DNA from: Falsiroseomonas frigidaquae
GTDB lineage: Bacteria > Pseudomonadota > Alphaproteobacteria > Acetobacterales > Acetobacteraceae
Direction: 5' to 3'
Assembly: GCF_012163145.1 (NCBI RefSeq)
Contig: NZ_JAAVTX010000002.1
Span: forward strand, 620,001-684,000
Length of the DNA stretch: 64,000 bases
Position numbers and translations under genes: made by a program. Under the pieces are notes generated by a model that was given only the letters and a program-made list of their open reading frames with translations, was not told the origin of the DNA and searched no databases. Positions 10,284 through 38,354 of the stretch are shown piece after piece (position 1 is the stretch's first letter; each line of letters starts with the position of its first letter).

Positions 10284-11303
10284 TCAGGCGCCCTCATAGA
10301 CCACTTCGAGGGACGGCTTGTTCAGCACCTCGGCGCCGCACATGTCCTCCATCGTCGCCGGGTCCAGCACCACGCCACGGCCAACCGCATCGCCCTTGAA
10401 CAGGTTCAGCAGGTTTTCGTGCGTCAGCGGATAGGGGCGGACGGGCGGCGCGCCGGCCACCTGCAAAGCGAGCTCCTCGAACACGCTGGCCCATTGGCCG
10501 CCGGGCACGCCGACGATCTCGTAGTTCGCGGACTTGCGGCGGATGTCGTCATCGGCCGGGATCGCGGCCAGCACCGGGATGCCGACTTCCTTGGCGAAGG
10601 CAGCCGCCTCGCCCGTGCCGTCATCCTTGTTGATGACCATGCCGGCCACGCCGACATTGCCGCCGAGCTTCTTGAAGTACTCGACCGCGGAACAGACGTT
10701 GTTCGCCACATACAGCGATTGCAGGTCGTTGGAGCCAACGACGATCACCTTCTGGCACATGTCCCGCGCAATCGGCAGGCCGAAGCCGCCGCAGACCACG
10801 TCGCCAAGGAAATCCAGCAGAACGTAGTCAAAGTCCCACTGATGAAAGCCGAGCTTCTCCAGCAATTCGAAACCATGGATGATGCCGCGCCCGCCGCAGC
10901 CGCGGCCGACCTCCGGCCCGCCCAGCTCCATGGCGAAGACGCCGTCGCGCTTGAAGCAGACATCGCCGATCTTCACCGCCTCGCCGGCCGCCTTCTTCTT
11001 CGAGGACGTCTCGATGATGGTCGGCACGGACCGGCCGCCGAAAAGCAGGCTTGTGGTATCCGACTTCGGATCGCAGCCGATCAGCAGCACGCGCTTGCCC
11101 TGCTGCGCCATCATGTAGCTGAGGTTGGCCAGCGTGAAGGATTTGCCGATGCCGCCCTTGCCGTAGATGGCGATGATCTGCGTTTCCTTCTTCACCGGAC
11201 CCGTCGCCACCGCATCGGGCTCCTGCGCCGCCTCGTCGCGCAGCGCATCCGCCATGCTCTGCTGCGCGGTGTTCGCGGCGGGCGAAGCGGTGTGTGCGTT
11301 CAT
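10284..11303 (-). CDS. bchX: Chlorophyllide a reductase iron protein BchX
   Basis: A 339-residue NifH-like ATPase that donates electrons to BchYZ. The P-loop [18 protein letters not shown] is followed by LLIGCDPKSDTTSLLFGG, GRGCGGRGI and [13 protein letters not shown], which carry the cysteines for the shared [4Fe-4S] cluster. The start at 11303 is preferred over upstream ATGs because it overlaps the bchC stop (ATGA) and has GGAGAG seven bases upstream. An N-terminal extension of about 40 residues before the P-loop is normal for BchX and absent from BchL. Confidence 0.97.
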   Translation of the reverse strand: MNAHTASPAANTAQQSMADALRDEAAQEPDAVATGPVKKETQIIAIYGKGGIGKSFTLANLSYMMAQQGKRVLLIGCDPKSDTTSLLFGGRSVPTIIETSSKKKAAGEAVKIGDVCFKRDGVFAMELGGPEVGRGCGGRGIIHGFELLEKLGFHQWDFDYVLLDFLGDVVCGGFGLPIARDMCQKVIVVGSNDLQSLYVANNVCSAVEYFKKLGGNVGVAGMVINKDDGTGEAAAFAKEVGIPVLAAIPADDDIRRKSANYEIVGVPGGQWASVFEELALQVAGAPPVRPYPLTHENLLNLFKGDAVGRGVVLDPATMEDMCGAEVLNKPSLEVVYEGA

Positions 11304-12229
11304 GAGCATGCTCTCCAATCGAGGATCATCTTGAGGCACGCGGGATCGTTGAAGGCGGTGCGGTAGGCATCCGGCGCGGCGCTGGCGTCCCGCCGATGCG
11401 TGATCAGCCCTTCGAAGGACAACCGCCCGGCATCGAGCAGGCCGCGCACCGCGACCAGATCAGGCTCCCGCCATTCCGCGGCGACGCGGAACCGCGCCTC
11501 CCGCATGAAGGCGGGCGGGAAGGCGAAGCTGAGTGGCGCGCTGTAGAAGCCGGCGAGCACGATCTCCCCGCCCGGCGCCAGGCGCTGCACCAGGCTGTCC
11601 AGCAGCCCGCTGTCGCCGCTGACATCGCAGATGCTGCGGTAGTCGCGCCGCGCATCGTCATCCGGCGTCACCACCTGGTAACCGCTGGCGCCATCGGCCC
11701 GTGCGGGATTGGTCTCCCACACCGTGGGCGCGCCGCCGGCCGCCACCACAAGCCGCGCCAGCAGCCGGCCGAGCACGCCATGGCCGATGATCAGCTCCGG
11801 CAGTTCGGCGCCTATGGCATGTTGCGCCGTGGCGGCCAGCGCCATCAGCACGCCATCCTCGCCCAGCGCCTCGTCGATCGGCACCGCGCGCGCGCCCGGC
11901 ACCACCAGGCGGGAGGCAGCGCCGCCGAACAGGCCGCGCACGGTGCCGAAGCACTTCGCACCGGGCACGAACACCCGTTCACCGACGCGACGCATCGAGG
12001 ATGGGCCGGCGGCAGCCACGCGACCTACGGATTCGTAGCCAGGCACCAGCGGGTAGCCCATGCCCGGGAAGGGCGGCATGCGGCCGGACCAGAGCAGGCG
12101 CTCCGTCCCCGTGCTGATCCCGCTCCATTCCACGTCCACCACGATATCCTCCTCGCCCGGGGGCGAGAGTTCGAGGCGGCTCAGAACGAGGCGTTCCGGC
12201 GCTTCCAGCAAGACTGCCACGGTGTCCAC
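11300..12229 (-). CDS. bchC: 3-hydroxyethyl bacteriochlorophyllide a dehydrogenase BchC
   Basis: A 309-residue zinc-less medium-chain dehydrogenase that oxidises the C3 hydroxyethyl side chain to acetyl, the last tetrapyrrole-ring step before phytylation. Family blocks are visible: WSGISTGTERLLWSG, FPGMGYPLVPGYESVG, FGTVRGLFGGAAS and LIIGHGVLGRLLARL. The start codon is GTG, with GGGAG upstream. It is the first gene after the paired PpsR operators and begins the bchCXYZ-puf superoperon; its stop overlaps bchX. Confidence 0.96.
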   Translation of the reverse strand: MDTVAVLLEAPERLVLSRLELSPPGEEDIVVDVEWSGISTGTERLLWSGRMPPFPGMGYPLVPGYESVGRVAAAGPSSMRRVGERVFVPGAKCFGTVRGLFGGAASRLVVPGARAVPIDEALGEDGVLMALAATAQHAIGAELPELIIGHGVLGRLLARLVVAAGGAPTVWETNPARADGASGYQVVTPDDDARRDYRSICDVSGDSGLLDSLVQRLAPGGEIVLAGFYSAPLSFAFPPAFMREARFRVAAEWREPDLVAVRGLLDAGRLSFEGLITHRRDASAAPDAYRTAFNDPACLKMILDWRACS

Positions 12230-12255
12230 CTGGACGGCCGCTCCCTTTGATTATG

Positions 12256-12273
12256 TGTCAGCCTATCCTGACA
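12256..12273. promoter_or_regulatory. PpsR/CrtJ operator, bchC-proximal
   Basis: TGTCAGCCTATCCTGACA is an exact TGT-N12-ACA palindrome. It covers the likely bchC -10 element and lies 26 bases upstream of the GTG. PpsR is encoded in this cluster. Repression under oxygen is the known role of such sites in Rhodobacter. Confidence 0.88.
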
Positions 12274-12287
12274 GTGATGCATGTCAA
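12260..12287 (-). promoter_or_regulatory. Predicted bchC promoter
   Basis: On the minus strand TTGACA (12287-12282) and TAGGCT (12265-12260) are separated by 16 bases. Each element lies inside one of the two PpsR palindromes, so bound repressor would occlude both. The -10 match is only moderate. Confidence 0.5.
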
Positions 12288-12299
12288 GACAAACTGACA
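12282..12299. promoter_or_regulatory. PpsR/CrtJ operator, bchC-distal
   Basis: TGTCAAGACAAACTGACA is a second exact TGT-N12-ACA palindrome, eight bases from the first. An eight-base gap is the arrangement described for cooperative CrtJ binding at the Rhodobacter capsulatus bchC promoter. Confidence 0.88.
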
Positions 12300-12307
12300 T
12301 GCGAGCG

Positions 12308-13453
12308 TCAGGTCGCGCTGACATCGGCAACCAGCACGCGTGTCAGCAGCGGCGTCGGCGTTGGCAGGGCCCGGCTGCGGCCGAAGCCGGCGGCGGCGAG
12401 CATCGCCTGCAGTTCCTCCGGGCGGCGCGGGCGGCCGCGTCCCATGGCCAGCAGGTAGAAGCCGAAATACGCCTCCCCCATCGGCTCCGCGCCGCTGGTG
12501 CCGGCCATCGGCTCGGCGATCAGCAGGCGGCCGCCGGCGGGCAGCGCGGCACGGGCGGCGCGCAGCAGGCCCATCACCACGGCGTCATCGTGGTCGTGCA
12601 ACACGCGGACGAAGCTGATCAGGTCGGCGCCCTGCGGCAGCGGATCCGTGGTGAAGTCGCCGCCAAAGGCTTCCGCACGCCCGGACAAGCCGCGTGAAGC
12701 GAAGCGCGCCGTGGCGCGGGAGGCCACCTGGGGCAGGTCGAACAGCATCAGCCGCAGATCCGGCGCGGCCGGGGCGACCTCCGCCAGGAAGGCGCCCTCC
12801 CCGCCGCCGACATCGAGCAGCGCGCGGTGGCGGCGGAAATCGTAGCTGGCCAGCACCTCCGCCGCGACCATCGGCTGGGACGCCGCCATCAGCGCGGAGT
12901 AGTCGGCCACGCGCTCCGCCCCCAGCGCCTGCGGCGCCACGGCGCCGGCATAGGCCCAGTAGGCGGACAGCGCATTGCCACCGCGGTCCCGCCGCAGCAG
13001 CGCGACGGGGTCCGCCAGATCCGCGTAGAGCAGCGCGTGGTGCTCCACCATGGCGGCGATGCCCGGGTTGCCAATCATGGCCGCCCCCAGCGGGCCCAGC
13101 ACCCACAGCCCGTCCTGGCGCCGGCGGGTCAGGTCCAGCGCGGCGGCGGCGGCCAGCAGGCGGCCCATCGCCTCCGGCGGCACCGCAAGGCGCAGCGCCA
13201 GCGCGGCCTCGCTGGCCGGCGCCTCGTGCAGGATCTCGAACAGCCGCAGCCGCACGCAGGCGGCCAGCACCTGGGAATAGACGAAGCCGGCGCAGAGATC
13301 GAACAACTGCCGCGCACGCCGCCGCGCCATCGGCCGGGTCAGCGGGAAGCGCGCGGCCCAGGCGCGGAAGCGCGGATTGGCCGTCACCCCCTCCCGCCAC
13401 GCGCGGAAGCGGTCCATCCATCCGGGCGCGGCCAGGGTGGCGGGCGCCCTCAC
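12308..13453 (-). CDS. crtF: Carotenoid O-methyltransferase CrtF
   Basis: A 382-residue protein that would methylate 1-hydroxy carotenoids with S-adenosylmethionine to give methoxy carotenoids. The N-terminal half holds the helical dimerisation domain (LFDLCAGFVYSQVLAACV). The SAM-binding motif LLDVGGGEGAFLAEV follows, then VRVLHDHDD and LLIAEPMAG, as in family-2 O-methyltransferases. A GTG overlapping the crtE stop (GTGA) is taken as the start; an ATG at 13417 is an alternative. Its expected partners CrtC and CrtD are not in the window, so its substrate must be made by genes elsewhere. Confidence 0.9.
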   Translation of the reverse strand: MRAPATLAAPGWMDRFRAWREGVTANPRFRAWAARFPLTRPMARRRARQLFDLCAGFVYSQVLAACVRLRLFEILHEAPASEAALALRLAVPPEAMGRLLAAAAALDLTRRRQDGLWVLGPLGAAMIGNPGIAAMVEHHALLYADLADPVALLRRDRGGNALSAYWAYAGAVAPQALGAERVADYSALMAASQPMVAAEVLASYDFRRHRALLDVGGGEGAFLAEVAPAAPDLRLMLFDLPQVASRATARFASRGLSGRAEAFGGDFTTDPLPQGADLISFVRVLHDHDDAVVMGLLRAARAALPAGGRLLIAEPMAGTSGAEPMGEAYFGFYLLAMGRGRPRRPEELQAMLAAAGFGRSRALPTPTPLLTRVLVADVSAT

Positions 13454-14322
13454 GCCGCCTGGGCGGCCAGCTTGGCCGGCACCAGTCGCTTCGCCTCGGC
13501 CAGGATCAGGCCGCGCAGCAGGGCCTGGCCGCGGCATTCGGGTATCGCCGCCACAGCTTGCTCGGACAGCGCCCGCAACCGCGCCACGGCGCCGTCCAGG
13601 CCGAATTCCGCAACCGCGCTCGGCCGGCCAAGCGCCTTGTCCACGCCCACCGGCTTGCCGAGTGTCGCCTCATCCTCCACCGCATCTCGTAAATCGTCCG
13701 CCACCTGGTAGGCCTCGCCCAGCCGGTCGCCGAGCAGGCGCCAGGCTTCCGGCTCCACATGGCCGGCGGCGGTGGCGCCGGCGACGGTCGCGGCAGCGAA
13801 CAGGCTGCCGGTCTTCTGCCGCTGGTATTCCGACAGGTCGGCGCGCGGCTCGCATTCCCAGGCCTGGCCGGCGACGATGCCGAAGGGCACGCCGACGCCA
13901 TCGCCAACCACCAGCAACAGCGGGCCCAGCCGTTCCGGCGCCGAAGGGGCGGCCCGCGCCAGGGTCTGGAAGGCCAGCACGATCAGCGCGTCGCCTGCCA
14001 GCACCGCCAGCGGCTCGCCATAGGCGCGGTGCACGCTGGGCTTGCCGCGGCGGGTCGCCGCGTCGTCGAAACAGGGCAGGTCGTCATGCACCAGGCTGGC
14101 GCAATGCAGTAGTTCGATCGCGGCCGCGGCGGCGGAGGACAGCGCCGGCCGGTCATCGCCGCAGGCCGCCGCCACCGCCAGCGTCAGGCGCGGCCGGATG
14201 CGCCCGCCCTTGGGGAAGACCGCATGCCGCATGGCGGCCGCGAGGCGCGGCGGCGCGCCCGCCGCCTCGGCGCAGAGCACGGCATCGGCCAGGCTGGATT
14301 CGATCCGCGAGACGGCATCCAT
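13450..14322 (-). CDS. crtE: Geranylgeranyl diphosphate synthase CrtE
   Basis: A 290-residue trans-prenyltransferase that makes the C20 precursor for carotenoids and the bacteriochlorophyll tail. The first Asp-rich motif is HDDLPCFDDA, the second QVADDLRDAVEDE, and FPKGGRIRPRL is the family N-terminal block. The ATG at 14322 has GGGAGG six bases upstream; an in-frame TTG two codons earlier is less likely. The promoter region carries one exact and one near PpsR palindrome. Confidence 0.95.
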   Translation of the reverse strand: MDAVSRIESSLADAVLCAEAAGAPPRLAAAMRHAVFPKGGRIRPRLTLAVAAACGDDRPALSSAAAAAIELLHCASLVHDDLPCFDDAATRRGKPSVHRAYGEPLAVLAGDALIVLAFQTLARAAPSAPERLGPLLLVVGDGVGVPFGIVAGQAWECEPRADLSEYQRQKTGSLFAAATVAGATAAGHVEPEAWRLLGDRLGEAYQVADDLRDAVEDEATLGKPVGVDKALGRPSAVAEFGLDGAVARLRALSEQAVAAIPECRGQALLRGLILAEAKRLVPAKLAAQAA

Positions 14323-14350
14323 CGGCAACCTCCCAACCGCGCCGGCCTGA

Positions 14351-14368
14351 TGTAAGCCTGGCTTGTCA
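14351..14368. promoter_or_regulatory. Degenerate PpsR operator, crtE-proximal
   Basis: TGTAAGCCTGGCTTGTCA matches TGT-N12-ACA except for the third-last base. It is 28 bases from the crtE ATG and eight bases from the exact site, so it is judged real by its phasing and by its likeness to the corresponding bchC site. Confidence 0.6.
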
Positions 14369-14376
14369 GTGCCGAG

Positions 14377-14394
14377 TGTCAGTCTTTCTTGACA
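14377..14394. promoter_or_regulatory. PpsR/CrtJ operator between crtE and the DUF2189 gene
   Basis: TGTCAGTCTTTCTTGACA is an exact TGT-N12-ACA palindrome. On the minus strand CTGACA within it, with CAGGCT 16 bases on, mirrors the bchC promoter layout. Because the neighbouring gene is divergent, the site could also affect the DUF2189 gene. Confidence 0.85.
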
Positions 14395-14530
14395 GTTAAG
14401 TCAACCGCCAATCGGTCACGCGGGCTTGAGACGCAGCCGGGCGCGGACGTCCCAATTGACAGATGCGGGGTCCTTGCCGGGCATCGCCGGCACCGGGCCG
14501 TCCGCGGAACCCAGCAGGGGGAAGCGAACG

Positions 14531-15340
14531 ATGGCTGAGGCTATGACCACCACGCGCAACTTCGAAAGCGCGCCGCCGGAACTGCGGCGCATCGGGCTGG
14601 AGGACCTCGGCACGGCGCTGCGCCGCGGCTGGGCCGATTTCCTGGCGACGCCGACACAGCTGATGTTCCTCTGCATCCTCTATCCCGTCATCGGGCTGGT
14701 CGCCGCGACGCTGGCGGCAGGCGGGGAGGTGATGCACCTGTTCTACCCGATGGCCGCCGGCTTCGCGCTGGTCGGCCCGCTTGCCGCGCTTGGCCTCTAT
14801 GAGATCAGCCGGCGGCGCGAGGCCGGGCTGCCGACAAGCTGGACCGACGTGTTCCAGGTGCTGCGCTCGCCCGCCTTGCCCGCCATCTCCGGGCTGGCCG
14901 TGCTGCTGCTGGTGCTGTTCACAGCCTGGTTGTGGACGGCGGATGCGATCCACGCCGCCACGCTCGGCACGCTGCCGACCGATCCGCGCTACAATGGTGG
15001 CGCGCTGGCGCTGCTGGAGCAGGTCTTCGGCACGGCGGAAGGGCAGCGGATGCTGCTGATCGGCCATCTGGTCGGCTTCGGCTTCGCCGCCCTGGTGCTG
15101 GCGCTGACGGTGGTGTCCTTCCCCCTGCTGCTGGACCGGCCGCAGGCGGGGCTGGGCCAGGCGATCGGCACCTCGCTGCGCGCGGTGGCCGCCAATCCGC
15201 TGCCGATGGCGGCCTGGGGCTTGATCGTCGCGGCGCTGCTGCTGCTGGGATCGCTGCCGCTGTTCATCGGCCTGGCGGTGGTGCTGCCGGTGCTCGGACA
15301 TGCAACCTGGCACCTGTACCGACTGGTGGTGGCGCGCTGA
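14531..15340 (+). CDS. DUF2189-type integral membrane protein
   Basis: A 269-residue protein with about six predicted membrane helices, starting after a charged N-terminal segment (RRIGLEDLGTALRRGWADF). The block ATPTQLMFLCILYPVIG and the later FPLLLDRP with ATSLRAV-like spacing resemble the DUF2189 family, whose function is unknown. The ATG at 14531 follows AGGGGGAA. It is the only plus-strand gene between 1.6 and 35.8 kb, is divergent from crtE across a 208-base region containing PpsR operators, and ends three bases before the crtB stop. Its place in the middle of the cluster suggests, but does not prove, a function in pigment or membrane biogenesis. Confidence 0.8.
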   Translation: MAEAMTTTRNFESAPPELRRIGLEDLGTALRRGWADFLATPTQLMFLCILYPVIGLVAATLAAGGEVMHLFYPMAAGFALVGPLAALGLYEISRRREAGLPTSWTDVFQVLRSPALPAISGLAVLLLVLFTAWLWTADAIHAATLGTLPTDPRYNGGALALLEQVFGTAEGQRMLLIGHLVGFGFAALVLALTVVSFPLLLDRPQAGLGQAIGTSLRAVAANPLPMAAWGLIVAALLLLGSLPLFIGLAVVLPVLGHATWHLYRLVVAR

Positions 15341-33727: not shown

Positions 33728-35586
<1,859 letters not shown>

Positions 35587-35777
35587 GGCTTGACAACCCT
35601 CCGTCAAAGGCGGTCCGCTGTCCGCAGACGGCTGCCGTGGCCCCTGGCCGGCAGCCCGCGATGGGGGGAAAAGGCGAGAAAACCGCGTATGTTGGCCAGT
35701 TGGGCCGCCTTCCCGCGCATCGTTTTCTCTCCCCGCACCGTGCTTGTTCAGGGAGGCTAGAGGCCCCGCCTTCGCAG

Positions 35778-35811
35778 TGTCAAGGACGATTGACGTAAAT
35801 CGCGGTTGACA
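35778..35811. promoter_or_regulatory. Degenerate PpsR-like operator region between bchF and ppaA
   Basis: TGTCAAGGACGATTGACG (35778-35795) misses the TGT-N12-ACA consensus by its last base and has perfect GTCAA/TTGAC arms. CGTAAATCGCGGTTGACA (35794-35811) misses by its first base. The two overlap by two bases rather than being spaced by eight. TTGACA at 35806-35811 could be a -35 element for ppaA. The rest of the 267-base spacer shows nothing I can assign. Confidence 0.45.
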
Positions 35812-35853: not shown

Positions 35854-36828
35854 ATGTCCGCGAAGCCAATGATGGCAGCACAGCACAGGGCGGAAACCGC
35901 CGGCCAATCGCAGGAAGCAGGGTCCGCCCCGCATTCCGGCCCGAGCCGGGACGCCGCCGGCCGTGAACTGATCGGCAGCGACAGGTGGGCGCCCCCGGCC
36001 AGCCCCCGCGCGCCCCCAGCCCGGATCAGGCCCGCGAACGCCGAGCGCCGGCGCGTCGCCCTTCTGGCCCGCACGCTGGAGACGGAGGTGATCCCCCGTC
36101 TCGTGCTGTCCCGGCGCGAAGCCAATACGCCCGCCTATATCGACAGCCCCGGCGCCAGCATGCCGCAGCCGGAGGATGTCTCCGTCGTCGCCGGCCTCGC
36201 CCTGCAGGGCGATCTCGGCGGGGCGCTTGCCTATGTCGGCGGCCTCACAGCGCGCGGCATGCCGCTGGAACGGATCTACCTGTACCTGCTGGCCCCGGTG
36301 GCCCGACGTCTCGGCGAGATGTGGGAACAGGACCGCTGCGACTTCACCGCAGTGACCATCGGCCTGTGCTGCCTGCAGCAGGTGGTGCTGGAGAACAGCC
36401 CGGCCTTCCAGCCGCGCCTCGGCCGCGGCGATGTCGAACGCCGGGTGCTGCTGGCGCCGGTGCCGGGGGAACAGCACAGCTTCGGCCTTCTCATGGTCGG
36501 CGAGTTCTTCCGCCGCCAGGGGTGGGAAGTGTCCTCCGGCACCGGCACCACGTCGAAGGAACTGGCTGCGGTGGTGCGGCGGCAATGGTTCGCCGCCATC
36601 GGCTTCTCACTGGCCTGCGAGGATCGCCTGGAGATCCTGGCCACCACCATCCGGGCGGTGCGACGCGCCTCCCGCAACCCGCAGATCGGGGTGCTCGTCG
36701 GCGGACGGGTGTTCAACGATCGGCCGGAACTGGCCGCCCTGGTGGGCGCGGATGCGACGGCGGCGGATGGACAACAGGCGGCGCTGAAGGCGGAGACCCT
36801 TCTGGCGCTGCTGATGCGGGAGGCTTAA
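35854..36828 (+). CDS. ppaA: PpaA/AerR-type cobalamin-binding regulator
   Basis: A 324-residue protein. A Pro/Ala-rich N-terminus (about 1-60) precedes a helical domain (GLALQGDLGGALAYVGGLTARG and MWEQDRCDFTAVTIGLCCLQQ) and a Rossmann-like B12-binding domain with PGEQHSFGLLMVGEFF, whose His is at the position of the cobalamin ligand in AerR. VGGRVFNDRPEL lies near the end. AerR/PpaA antagonises or modifies PpsR in a light- and cobalamin-dependent way. It has GGAGGGGG before the ATG and lies 98 bases upstream of ppsR, the usual arrangement. The N-terminus may start later, at one of the Met codons near 35869. Confidence 0.9.
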   Translation: MSAKPMMAAQHRAETAGQSQEAGSAPHSGPSRDAAGRELIGSDRWAPPASPRAPPARIRPANAERRRVALLARTLETEVIPRLVLSRREANTPAYIDSPGASMPQPEDVSVVAGLALQGDLGGALAYVGGLTARGMPLERIYLYLLAPVARRLGEMWEQDRCDFTAVTIGLCCLQQVVLENSPAFQPRLGRGDVERRVLLAPVPGEQHSFGLLMVGEFFRRQGWEVSSGTGTTSKELAAVVRRQWFAAIGFSLACEDRLEILATTIRAVRRASRNPQIGVLVGGRVFNDRPELAALVGADATAADGQQAALKAETLLALLMREA

Positions 36829-36926: not shown

Positions 36927-38354
36927 GTGAAATCGTTCGCTACCCCCAGGATCTCGCTCGGCCCACTCGATGCGGATGCAGCCGCCGGGCTGATCGCCGC
37001 TGCCGCGGATGTCTCGCTCGTGCTTGACCAGGCCGGCATCATCCGTGACCTCGCCTTCAGCCATGAGGATCTGGCCCGGGAATTCGACGGTCCGGACAGC
37101 TGGCTCGGCCGCGCCTGGAGCGAGACCGTGGCGAAGGACAGCCGCGCCAAGGTGGAGGCTATGCTGGCCCGGGACCCGCTGAAGGACCCCGCGAGGGACA
37201 CGGCGCGCTGGCGCCATATCAATCAGTTGACCACGCGCGGCGCCTCGATCCCGCTGCTGTGTTCCGTGGCGCCGCTCGGCCAGGCCGGGCGGCATGTGGT
37301 GTTCGGCCGGGATCTGCGGCCGCTGTCGCAATTGCAACAGCGCATGGTCGAGGTGCAGCAATCCATGGAGCGGGACTATTCCCGCCTGCGCCAGGCGGAA
37401 ACCCGCTACCGCCTGCTGTTCCAGATGGCGATGGACCCGGTGCTGATCCTGGACGCCGACCAGCAGCGCATCATGGAGGCCAATCCGGCGGCGCAGCGCC
37501 TGTTCGGCCGCAACGCAAGGCGCACCCCGAGCCGCACATTGGCCGAGGTGTTCGAGCCGGGCGACCGCCTCGCGGTGCAGACCCTGCTCGCCAACGTCCG
37601 CAGCGCCGGCCGGGCGGATGACGTGACCGCGCATCTGGCCGAAAGCGGCGAGGCGGTGGTGGTCTCCGCCTCCACCTTCCGGCAGGAGGCGGGGCTGCTG
37701 TTCCTGGTCCGGCTTTCCGCGCCGGCCCAGGGCGGCGCGGCGCTGCCCGACTCCCAGGCCAAGATGCTGAAGGTGGTGCAGGTGGCGCCCGATGGCTTCG
37801 TGGTGACCGATGCCAGCGCCCAGGTGCTGACCGCCAACGCCGCCTTCCTCGACATGGCGCAGCTGACGCAGGAGGACCAGGCGCGCGGCGAGCCGCTGGA
37901 CCGCTGGATCGGCCGCCAGGGCGTGGAGCTGGAGGTGCTGCTGACCAACCTCCGCAACCGCGGCGCCGTGCGGCTTTATGCCACCACGCTGCATGGCGCG
38001 CTGGGCGGGCAGGTGGAGGTGGAGATCTCCGCCGTCTCCGTCATGAATGGCGGGCAGGCCTGCTTCGGCTTCCAGATCCGTGACATCGGCGCGCGGTCCC
38101 GCCCCGCCGCGCGGGCGGCGGATGGCGCGACACGGTCGGTGGAACAGCTGACGGAGCTGATCGGCCGCGTGCCGCTGAAGGATCTGGTGCGGGAGGCGAC
38201 GGACGCGATCGAGCGGCTGTGCATCGAGGCGGCGCTGGAGCTGACCGGCGACAACCGCGCCTCGGCGGCGGAGATGCTGGGGCTGTCGCGGCAGAGCCTC
38301 TACGTGAAGCTGCGGCGCTACGGCCTCGGCGATCTCGATGAGCAGCAGGGGTAG
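36927..38354 (+). CDS. ppsR: PpsR/CrtJ transcriptional repressor of photosynthesis genes
   Basis: A 475-residue regulator with the PpsR layout: an N-terminal PAS-like part, a Gln-rich linker (SQLQQRMVEVQQSMERDY), two PAS domains (about 155-265 and 280-390) and a Fis-type helix-turn-helix (about 430-470, LGLSRQSLYVKLRRYGL). Cysteines are at about 112, 379 and 432; Cys432 corresponds to the redox cysteine next to the helix-turn-helix, while the position of the other Rhodobacter switch cysteine near the end of the first PAS lacks Cys. The start is a GTG with a weak ribosome site, so it is uncertain. Exact target palindromes occur at bchC and crtE. Confidence 0.93.
   Translation: MKSFATPRISLGPLDADAAAGLIAAAADVSLVLDQAGIIRDLAFSHEDLAREFDGPDSWLGRAWSETVAKDSRAKVEAMLARDPLKDPARDTARWRHINQLTTRGASIPLLCSVAPLGQAGRHVVFGRDLRPLSQLQQRMVEVQQSMERDYSRLRQAETRYRLLFQMAMDPVLILDADQQRIMEANPAAQRLFGRNARRTPSRTLAEVFEPGDRLAVQTLLANVRSAGRADDVTAHLAESGEAVVVSASTFRQEAGLLFLVRLSAPAQGGAALPDSQAKMLKVVQVAPDGFVVTDASAQVLTANAAFLDMAQLTQEDQARGEPLDRWIGRQGVELEVLLTNLRNRGAVRLYATTLHGALGGQVEVEISAVSVMNGGQACFGFQIRDIGARSRPAARAADGATRSVEQLTELIGRVPLKDLVREATDAIERLCIEAALELTGDNRASAAEMLGLSRQSLYVKLRRYGLGDLDEQQG

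Follow-up and report, generated by a model that had tools for sequence, protein, structure and literature searches.

What kind of control do two pigment genes of Falsiroseomonas frigidaquae, bchC and crtE, share, and is the promoter of one a copy of the other? Both genes lie on the minus strand of a stretch of 64,000 nucleotides (the window; contig NZ_JAAVTX010000002.1, positions 620,001 to 684,000), and each is preceded by two palindromes in close succession. We consider it probable that both modules are tandem operators of the already known, closely spaced PpsR/CrtJ kind, a judgement that is held jointly with the view that the crtE promoter is offset relative to its operators.

An earlier reading of the letters (the first-pass annotation) had drawn these modules, and everything that it quoted was found to be exact. 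This holds for the four 18-mers and the two gaps of 8 bases, for the letters that the modules have in common (TGT-AGCCT and GTG), and for the distances of 26 and 28 bases from the operators to the start codons of bchC (GTG, 12229) and crtE (ATG, 14322). The candidate sites are given below in the order of the coding (minus) strand, with the plus-strand letters in brackets.

12282..12299, minus strand: bchC distal PpsR site, TGTCAGTTTGTCTTGACA (TGTCAAGACAAACTGACA); its last six bases (12282-12287, TTGACA) form the predicted -35
12274..12281, minus strand: bchC 8-base gap, TGCATCAC (GTGATGCA)
12256..12273, minus strand: bchC proximal PpsR site, TGTCAGGATAGGCTGACA (TGTCAGCCTATCCTGACA); TAGGCT at 12260-12265 is the predicted -10
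14377..14394, minus strand: crtE distal PpsR site, TGTCAAGAAAGACTGACA (TGTCAGTCTTTCTTGACA)
14369..14376, minus strand: crtE 8-base gap, CTCGGCAC (GTGCCGAG)
14351..14368, minus strand: crtE proximal PpsR site, TGACAAGCCAGGCTTACA (TGTAAGCCTGGCTTGTCA); its left half is TGA instead of TGT

Against the PpsR-type consensus TGTN12ACA, both bchC sites and the distal crtE site are perfect, and the proximal crtE site has one mismatch (TGA for TGT, with ACA kept). The spacing of eight bases at both genes is the separation described as typical of PpsR/CrtJ tandem sites (PMC9144470).

We found that these arrangements exceed what chance would supply. The consensus occurs 8 times in the window compared to 2.8 expected, with 3 of the 8 lying within the two modules, and simulation of 100 sequences gave an expectation of 0.01 per 64 kb for a gap-8 tandem scoring at least 25 of the maximal 28. 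A scan of the 6.08-Mb genome with the pattern TGTnA-N8-TnACA, 8 bases, TGWnA-N8-TnACA, allowing up to three mismatches, returned the bchC and crtE places (0-1 mismatches) and one other (3 mismatches). For the comparison with relatives, bchC was detected in 51 of 150 family genomes searched (the window's own counted) and in 27 of 385 class genomes, two of which (the window's own and G056) belong to the window's family; upstream stretches were taken from these bchC-bearing genomes and, out of a longer scan list, from the best 80 of the named records. Of the distinct upstream regions, 144 of 153 for bchC and 124 of 136 for crtE contained a tandem module scoring at least 24, compared to 0/153 and 0/136 in shuffled controls. 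The gap was 8 bases in 140 and 7 in 4 of the bchC modules, and 8 in 100 and 7 in 24 of the crtE modules. The genome also encodes a PpsR/CrtJ protein (ppsR, 36927..38354, plus strand; TIGR02040 PpsR-CrtJ, 466.6 bits, cut-off 275.4), which is the likely ligand of the bchC and crtE sites. The letters, the relatives and this gene in the window support the assignment of tandem PpsR-type operators to both promoters.

Several features of the modules resemble systems that have been described elsewhere. In Rhodobacter capsulatus, the bchC palindromes bound by CrtJ span -4 to -21 and -30 to -47 (PMC5362033), and the operator, like that of the window's bchC, consists of two TGTN12ACA palindromes 8 apart over the -35 and -10 (PMC5362033); this likeness is one of layout, and the window adds a third palindrome-like site 6 bases upstream, unlike R. 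capsulatus. Binding of PpsR/CrtJ before crtE has been reported from chromatin immunoprecipitation sequencing at R. capsulatus crtED and Rhodobacter sphaeroides crtEF/crtCD (PMC5362033; PMC4344238). For R. sphaeroides crtEF the account in PMC4344238 gives one motif, whereas the window's crtE has a pair, and the gene divergent from crtE in the window encodes a DUF2189 membrane protein, unlike the crt arrangement of either Rhodobacter. The crtI operator of Rubrivivax gelatinosus, as described in PMC4452267, shares with the window's crtE pair an 8-base gap and a TGA-N12-ACA site; it differs in reading CGT-N12-ACA at its second site, in controlling another gene and in coming from a betaproteobacterium. 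In the gammaproteobacterium Congregibacter litoralis KT71, 12 of 15 putative PpsR sites are reported as tandem, seven or eight nucleotides apart (PMC2654016), a likeness to the window in the described spacing.

We then asked where the promoters lie with respect to the operators. The hexamers quoted in the first-pass annotation are present, TTGACA-N16-TAGGCT at bchC and CTGACA-N16-CAGGCT at crtE, and it had placed both pairs equally within the palindromes. In the family counts, modules scoring below 25 were excluded (1 of 50 for bchC and 5 of 47 for crtE), leaving 49 bchC and 42 crtE modules. At bchC, a T precedes the distal right half in 49/49 and the TA plus T of the -10 is found in the proximal site in 46/49, and the window shows the placement of R. 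capsulatus bchC, TTGACA falling in the right half of the distal site and TAnnnT within the proximal one. This placement was not found at crtE, where TA plus T occurs in 1 of the 42 family modules and the window has CTGACA and CAGGCT. Instead, 39/42 family crtE modules, compared to 0/49 at bchC, have an exact TTGAC whose first base lies 9-11 bases upstream of the distal site, and the second gap base (offset 19) is a T in 40/42 compared to 16/49. In a logo of 34 family crtE modules, the tract immediately before the crtE -35 is A/T-rich. The following elements, absent from the first-pass annotation in the case of the -35, are predicted for crtE.

14399..14404, minus strand: predicted crtE -35, TTGACT, upstream of the distal site
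14375..14380, minus strand: predicted crtE -10, GACACT, overlapping the distal right half and two gap bases; 18-base spacer

These letters would put the transcription start of crtE near 14368. The family conservation thus points to a crtE promoter that is shifted relative to its operators, and the equal placement of -35 and -10 at the two genes, with the crtE hexamers that it assigned, is probably wrong. It appears likely, as far as sequence conservation can tell, that the operators cover the -35 and -10 at bchC but the -10 and +1 at crtE.

A second difference between the promoters concerns the proximal crtE site, which had been called weaker. This was borne out by the consensus, and the weakness is itself conserved in the family: the second left half has a T at its third base in 49/49 bchC modules and an A in 38/42 crtE modules, the latter being less frequent outside the family (8/19). 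Across the 124 distinct crtE modules this base is A in 95, T in 25, G in 3 and C in 1; by group, A was recorded in 49/53 family, 12/17 Beta, 4/9 Gamma and 32/47 other modules. The published data on operator strength run in the same direction. In R. sphaeroides, ChIP enrichment is reported as 24.3 at bchC and 3.3 at crtEF, with expression changes of -36.6 and -9.0, respectively, when ppsR is mutated (PMC4344238, Table 2), and the affinity of the Rubrivivax crtI operator, which has TGA and CGT halves, is reported to rise when both are made TGT (PMC4452267). By analogy, the conserved TGA half should lower PpsR affinity and leave crtE less tightly repressed than bchC, so that the weaker repression proposed for crtE is a reasonable expectation. 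A description of the crtE TGACAA as a reversed half-site was dropped, since TGTCA and TGACA are one base apart and a T-to-A change says the same more simply.

We next compared promoter registers across wider groups, excluding modules scoring below 24 (9 bchC and 12 crtE). Register I was defined by a -35 near -10 together with A15 and T19, and register II by a -35 near -20 together with A5 and T9, as offsets from the distal site. Three records lacking the 5' end were dropped (L079 for bchC; L062 and L137 for crtE), and for 16 loci the stretch contained no match to crtE. Identical crtE modules (L109/L032 and L159/L058) were merged for the distinct-module counts and the tree and left unmerged in the group counts. 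Group labels (family, Beta, Gamma, others) were assigned from record titles and family codes, some of which may be wrong. One such case is L182, a metagenome record in which bchC and crtE relatives occur under the title Bordetella parapertussis, a label that is probably wrong. Registers I and II were found at crtE in 49 and 0 of 53 family-grouped modules, 0 and 13 of 17 Beta-labelled, 0 and 7 of 9 Gamma-labelled, and 12 and 18 of 47 others. The bchC register was present in 58/62 family, 16/18 Beta, 7/7 Gamma and 50/59 other modules. T9 was present in 38/41 crtE modules with TTGA at -18 to -21 compared to 20/59 with TTGA at -8 to -11, and T19 in 25/41 with the far -35 compared to 58/59 with the near one; in 24 of the 124 distinct modules the -35 was at neither place. 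On the tree (95 rows) the register label changes 10 times, whereas 200 shuffles needed 29.7 changes on average and 24 at the lowest. An independent-pair test was too small for significance, with 4 pairs on supported branches and 11 on all branches: at this size, the pairs for and against an association with the far -35 came to 0.9 and 1.1 for T9, 1.8 and 0 for the absence of T19, and 0.5 and 0.1 for TA at 4-5. The comparison across groups is confounded by ancestry.

From these profiles we tentatively propose, at less than even confidence, that the operator pair at crtE is held fixed while the promoter slides beneath it by about one helical turn, and that the TGA half-site, frequent but not universal in either form, could keep the repression of crtE weaker than that of bchC, leaving the protective carotenoids less tightly shut off than bacteriochlorophyll. 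For the window's family, this would mean a -35 that starts about 10 bases before the distal site and a -10 at 14-19 from the site start; for most records labelled Beta- or Gammaproteobacteria, and for many others, it would mean a -35 starting about 19-20 upstream and a -10 at 4-9. The register slide stays a proposal. No crtE promoter register was encountered in the consulted passages of open-licence papers, and novelty is therefore left unclaimed.

A number of observations weigh against the main explanation, with its offset crtE promoter. In the window itself, the stretch that precedes the crtE -35 (GATTG) is not rich in A/T, and a consensus scan of 12200-14600 found no sigma-70-type promoter on either reading of the promoters. 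A15 of the crtE -10 is also part of a PpsR half-site, leaving T19 and TTGAC as the only independent marks. The marks are weaker outside the family: among 19 other class members, 4 had an exact TTGAC at -8 to -10 and 5 had one at -19/-20, and the weak half-site position was A in 8, T in 9 and another base in 2. Neither register fits 27 of the 124 distinct crtE modules. Family members share ancestry, so that their counts are not independent, and the difference between bchC and crtEF in R. sphaeroides comes from another species.

A different explanation accepts the operators as real but takes the TTGAC before the crtE distal site for something other than a -35, either an element that serves another regulator or one more PpsR half-site, and leaves the crtE promoter where the first-pass annotation drew it or elsewhere. 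GACACT is only a partial match to a -10, PpsR half-sites end in TGACA and so resemble TTGAC, the consensus promoter scan was empty, and the T9 link is unsupported by the independent-pair test over the tree, which has no power. However, TTGAC lies at 9-11 bases upstream of the distal site, off the 13-base step of the half-sites; its spacer to the proposed -10 is 17-19 bases, with the A/T-rich tract of the family logo just upstream; and T9 follows the far TTGA in the proportions given above. We regard this explanation as unlikely.

We also assessed whether the two modules resemble each other for reasons beyond their shared consensus, which the first-pass annotation had read as a sign of duplicated or co-evolving promoters. 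In the comparison across 87 genomes, the letters shared by the two modules were shared only in the window. AGGCT is found in both modules in 1/87 genomes, the window's, and, counted gene by gene, in 12/87 bchC and 1/87 crtE modules; a gap ending in CAC on the coding strand (the GTG at its plus-strand start) is likewise common to both modules in 1/87, again the window. The start-codon distances of the two modules lie within 2 bases of each other in 10/87 genomes and show no correlation. Among 33 family genomes, module identity was 0.616 for bchC with bchC and 0.615 for crtE with crtE, compared to 0.553 for bchC with crtE of the same genome and 0.536 across genomes (p 0.021), and the nearest neighbours in other genomes were of the same gene in 64/66. 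The window's own identity of 0.614 is on the high side, being reached by 4 of the 33 own pairs, and the flanks of its two modules are not alike (13/40 and 6/26 identical). That the modules are nearer to their orthologs than to each other argues against a recent duplication, and together with the flanks and the shared letters absent in relatives it led us to rule out a duplicated promoter pair. As the shared letters are confined to the window, the likeness is particular to it, and the extra resemblance looks coincidental.

Of the co-evolution claim, a weak trace is left. The likeness within genomes exceeds that across genomes by about 1.7 points, as seen in 48 genomes (0.557 compared to 0.540, p 0.005) and, against the nearest relative's partner, in 87 genomes (0.550 compared to 0.533, p 0.026). 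Upstream flanks show no such excess (0.285 compared to 0.285), and downstream flanks little (0.290 compared to 0.280, p 0.15). Module A+T content correlates between the bchC and crtE promoters (rho 0.65, 87 genomes), and the excess perhaps comes from this shared content or from PpsR preference; for A+T content as the whole cause of the excess, the correlation speaks in favor and the excess-free upstream flanks against. The full first-pass model, in which duplicated or concertedly evolving promoters with equally placed -35 and -10 elements inside the palindromes set both pathways jointly, has in its favor the identical operator layout and gap, the presence of CTGACA-N16-CAGGCT at crtE and this slight own-genome excess, but is highly improbable given the closer orthologs, the sharing of AGGCT and the GTG gap start in the window only, the uncorrelated distances and a supposed crtE -10 that the family does not conserve.

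Additional palindrome-like and PpsR-like sites were noted in the window. The third site before bchC, which the first-pass annotation did not mention, is as follows.

12306..12323, minus strand: TGTCAGCGCGACCTGACG, third palindrome-like site; located 6 bases upstream of the distal site of bchC, and overlapping the crtF stop codon (12308-12310)

It was found in the window and in its four nearest rows on the tree (L106, L107, L108, L031), not in L126, and in 11/146 modules overall; the site may be incidental because part of it is coding. Among the records compared, Falsiroseomonas L106 is nearest on the tree and also in BchC (94% identical). Further PpsR-like sites are located around the start of bchF and ahead of the gene for the B12 protein that precedes ppsR (35550-35567, 35578-35595, 35778-35795 and 35794-35811), the last two overlapping by two bases; four sites have been predicted between bchF and ppaA in Dinoroseobacter shibae (PMC10890935). 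The bchF site at 35578-35595, TGTAAGCATGGCTTGACA, matches the crtE-proximal site TGTAAGCCTGGCTTGTCA at 16/18 positions, more than the bchC-proximal site (13/18), as counted by eye.

The remaining genes around the operators and ppsR are listed below.

11300..12229, minus strand: bchC, TIGR01202, 445.8 bits, cut-off 291.25
12308..13450, minus strand: crtF-type O-methyltransferase, PF00891 and PF08100; start in frame not fixed; TIGR02716 (BchU) below cut-off
13450..14322, minus strand: crtE-type polyprenyl synthase, PF00348
14531..15340, divergent from crtE: DUF2189 membrane protein
35854..36828, plus strand: B12-binding-domain protein, PF02310, directly upstream of ppsR; likely ppaA/aerR, from its position

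The crtF name rests on the domains and the position between crtE and bchC, and the crtE name on the domain and the position before crtF-bchC; for the crtE product, the NCBIfam farnesyl model (174.1 bits) and the CrtE model (129.3 bits) both score below their cut-offs.

Carried over from Rhodobacter, the mechanism that we infer for binding, start sites and repression is that PpsR, side by side on the two palindromes, would block RNA polymerase under oxygen, and that low oxygen, with the B12 protein PpaA/AerR, would relieve the block. At bchC the operators would lie over the -35 and -10 as in R. capsulatus. At crtE the pair would sit further downstream on the promoter, with the -35 upstream of the distal site, the -10 overlapping its right half and the proximal site covering about +1 to +18; the TGA left half would lower PpsR affinity here and make repression looser than at bchC.

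The operator pair itself is ordinary, another case of a well-studied operator, and the added value lies in the comparison of the two promoters, of which the offset crtE register and the family-kept weak half-site are the parts worth testing. The comparison may also matter for motif scans in which the bchC pair is the sole one reported inside the photosynthesis cluster, Sediminicoccus KRV36 being an example (PMC10949492). One repressor and one operator geometry are seemingly used in two promoter registers within one gene cluster, and the weak half-site kept by the family at a carotenoid gene offers a testable reason for a possible looser shut-off of carotenoid synthesis compared to that of bacteriochlorophyll.

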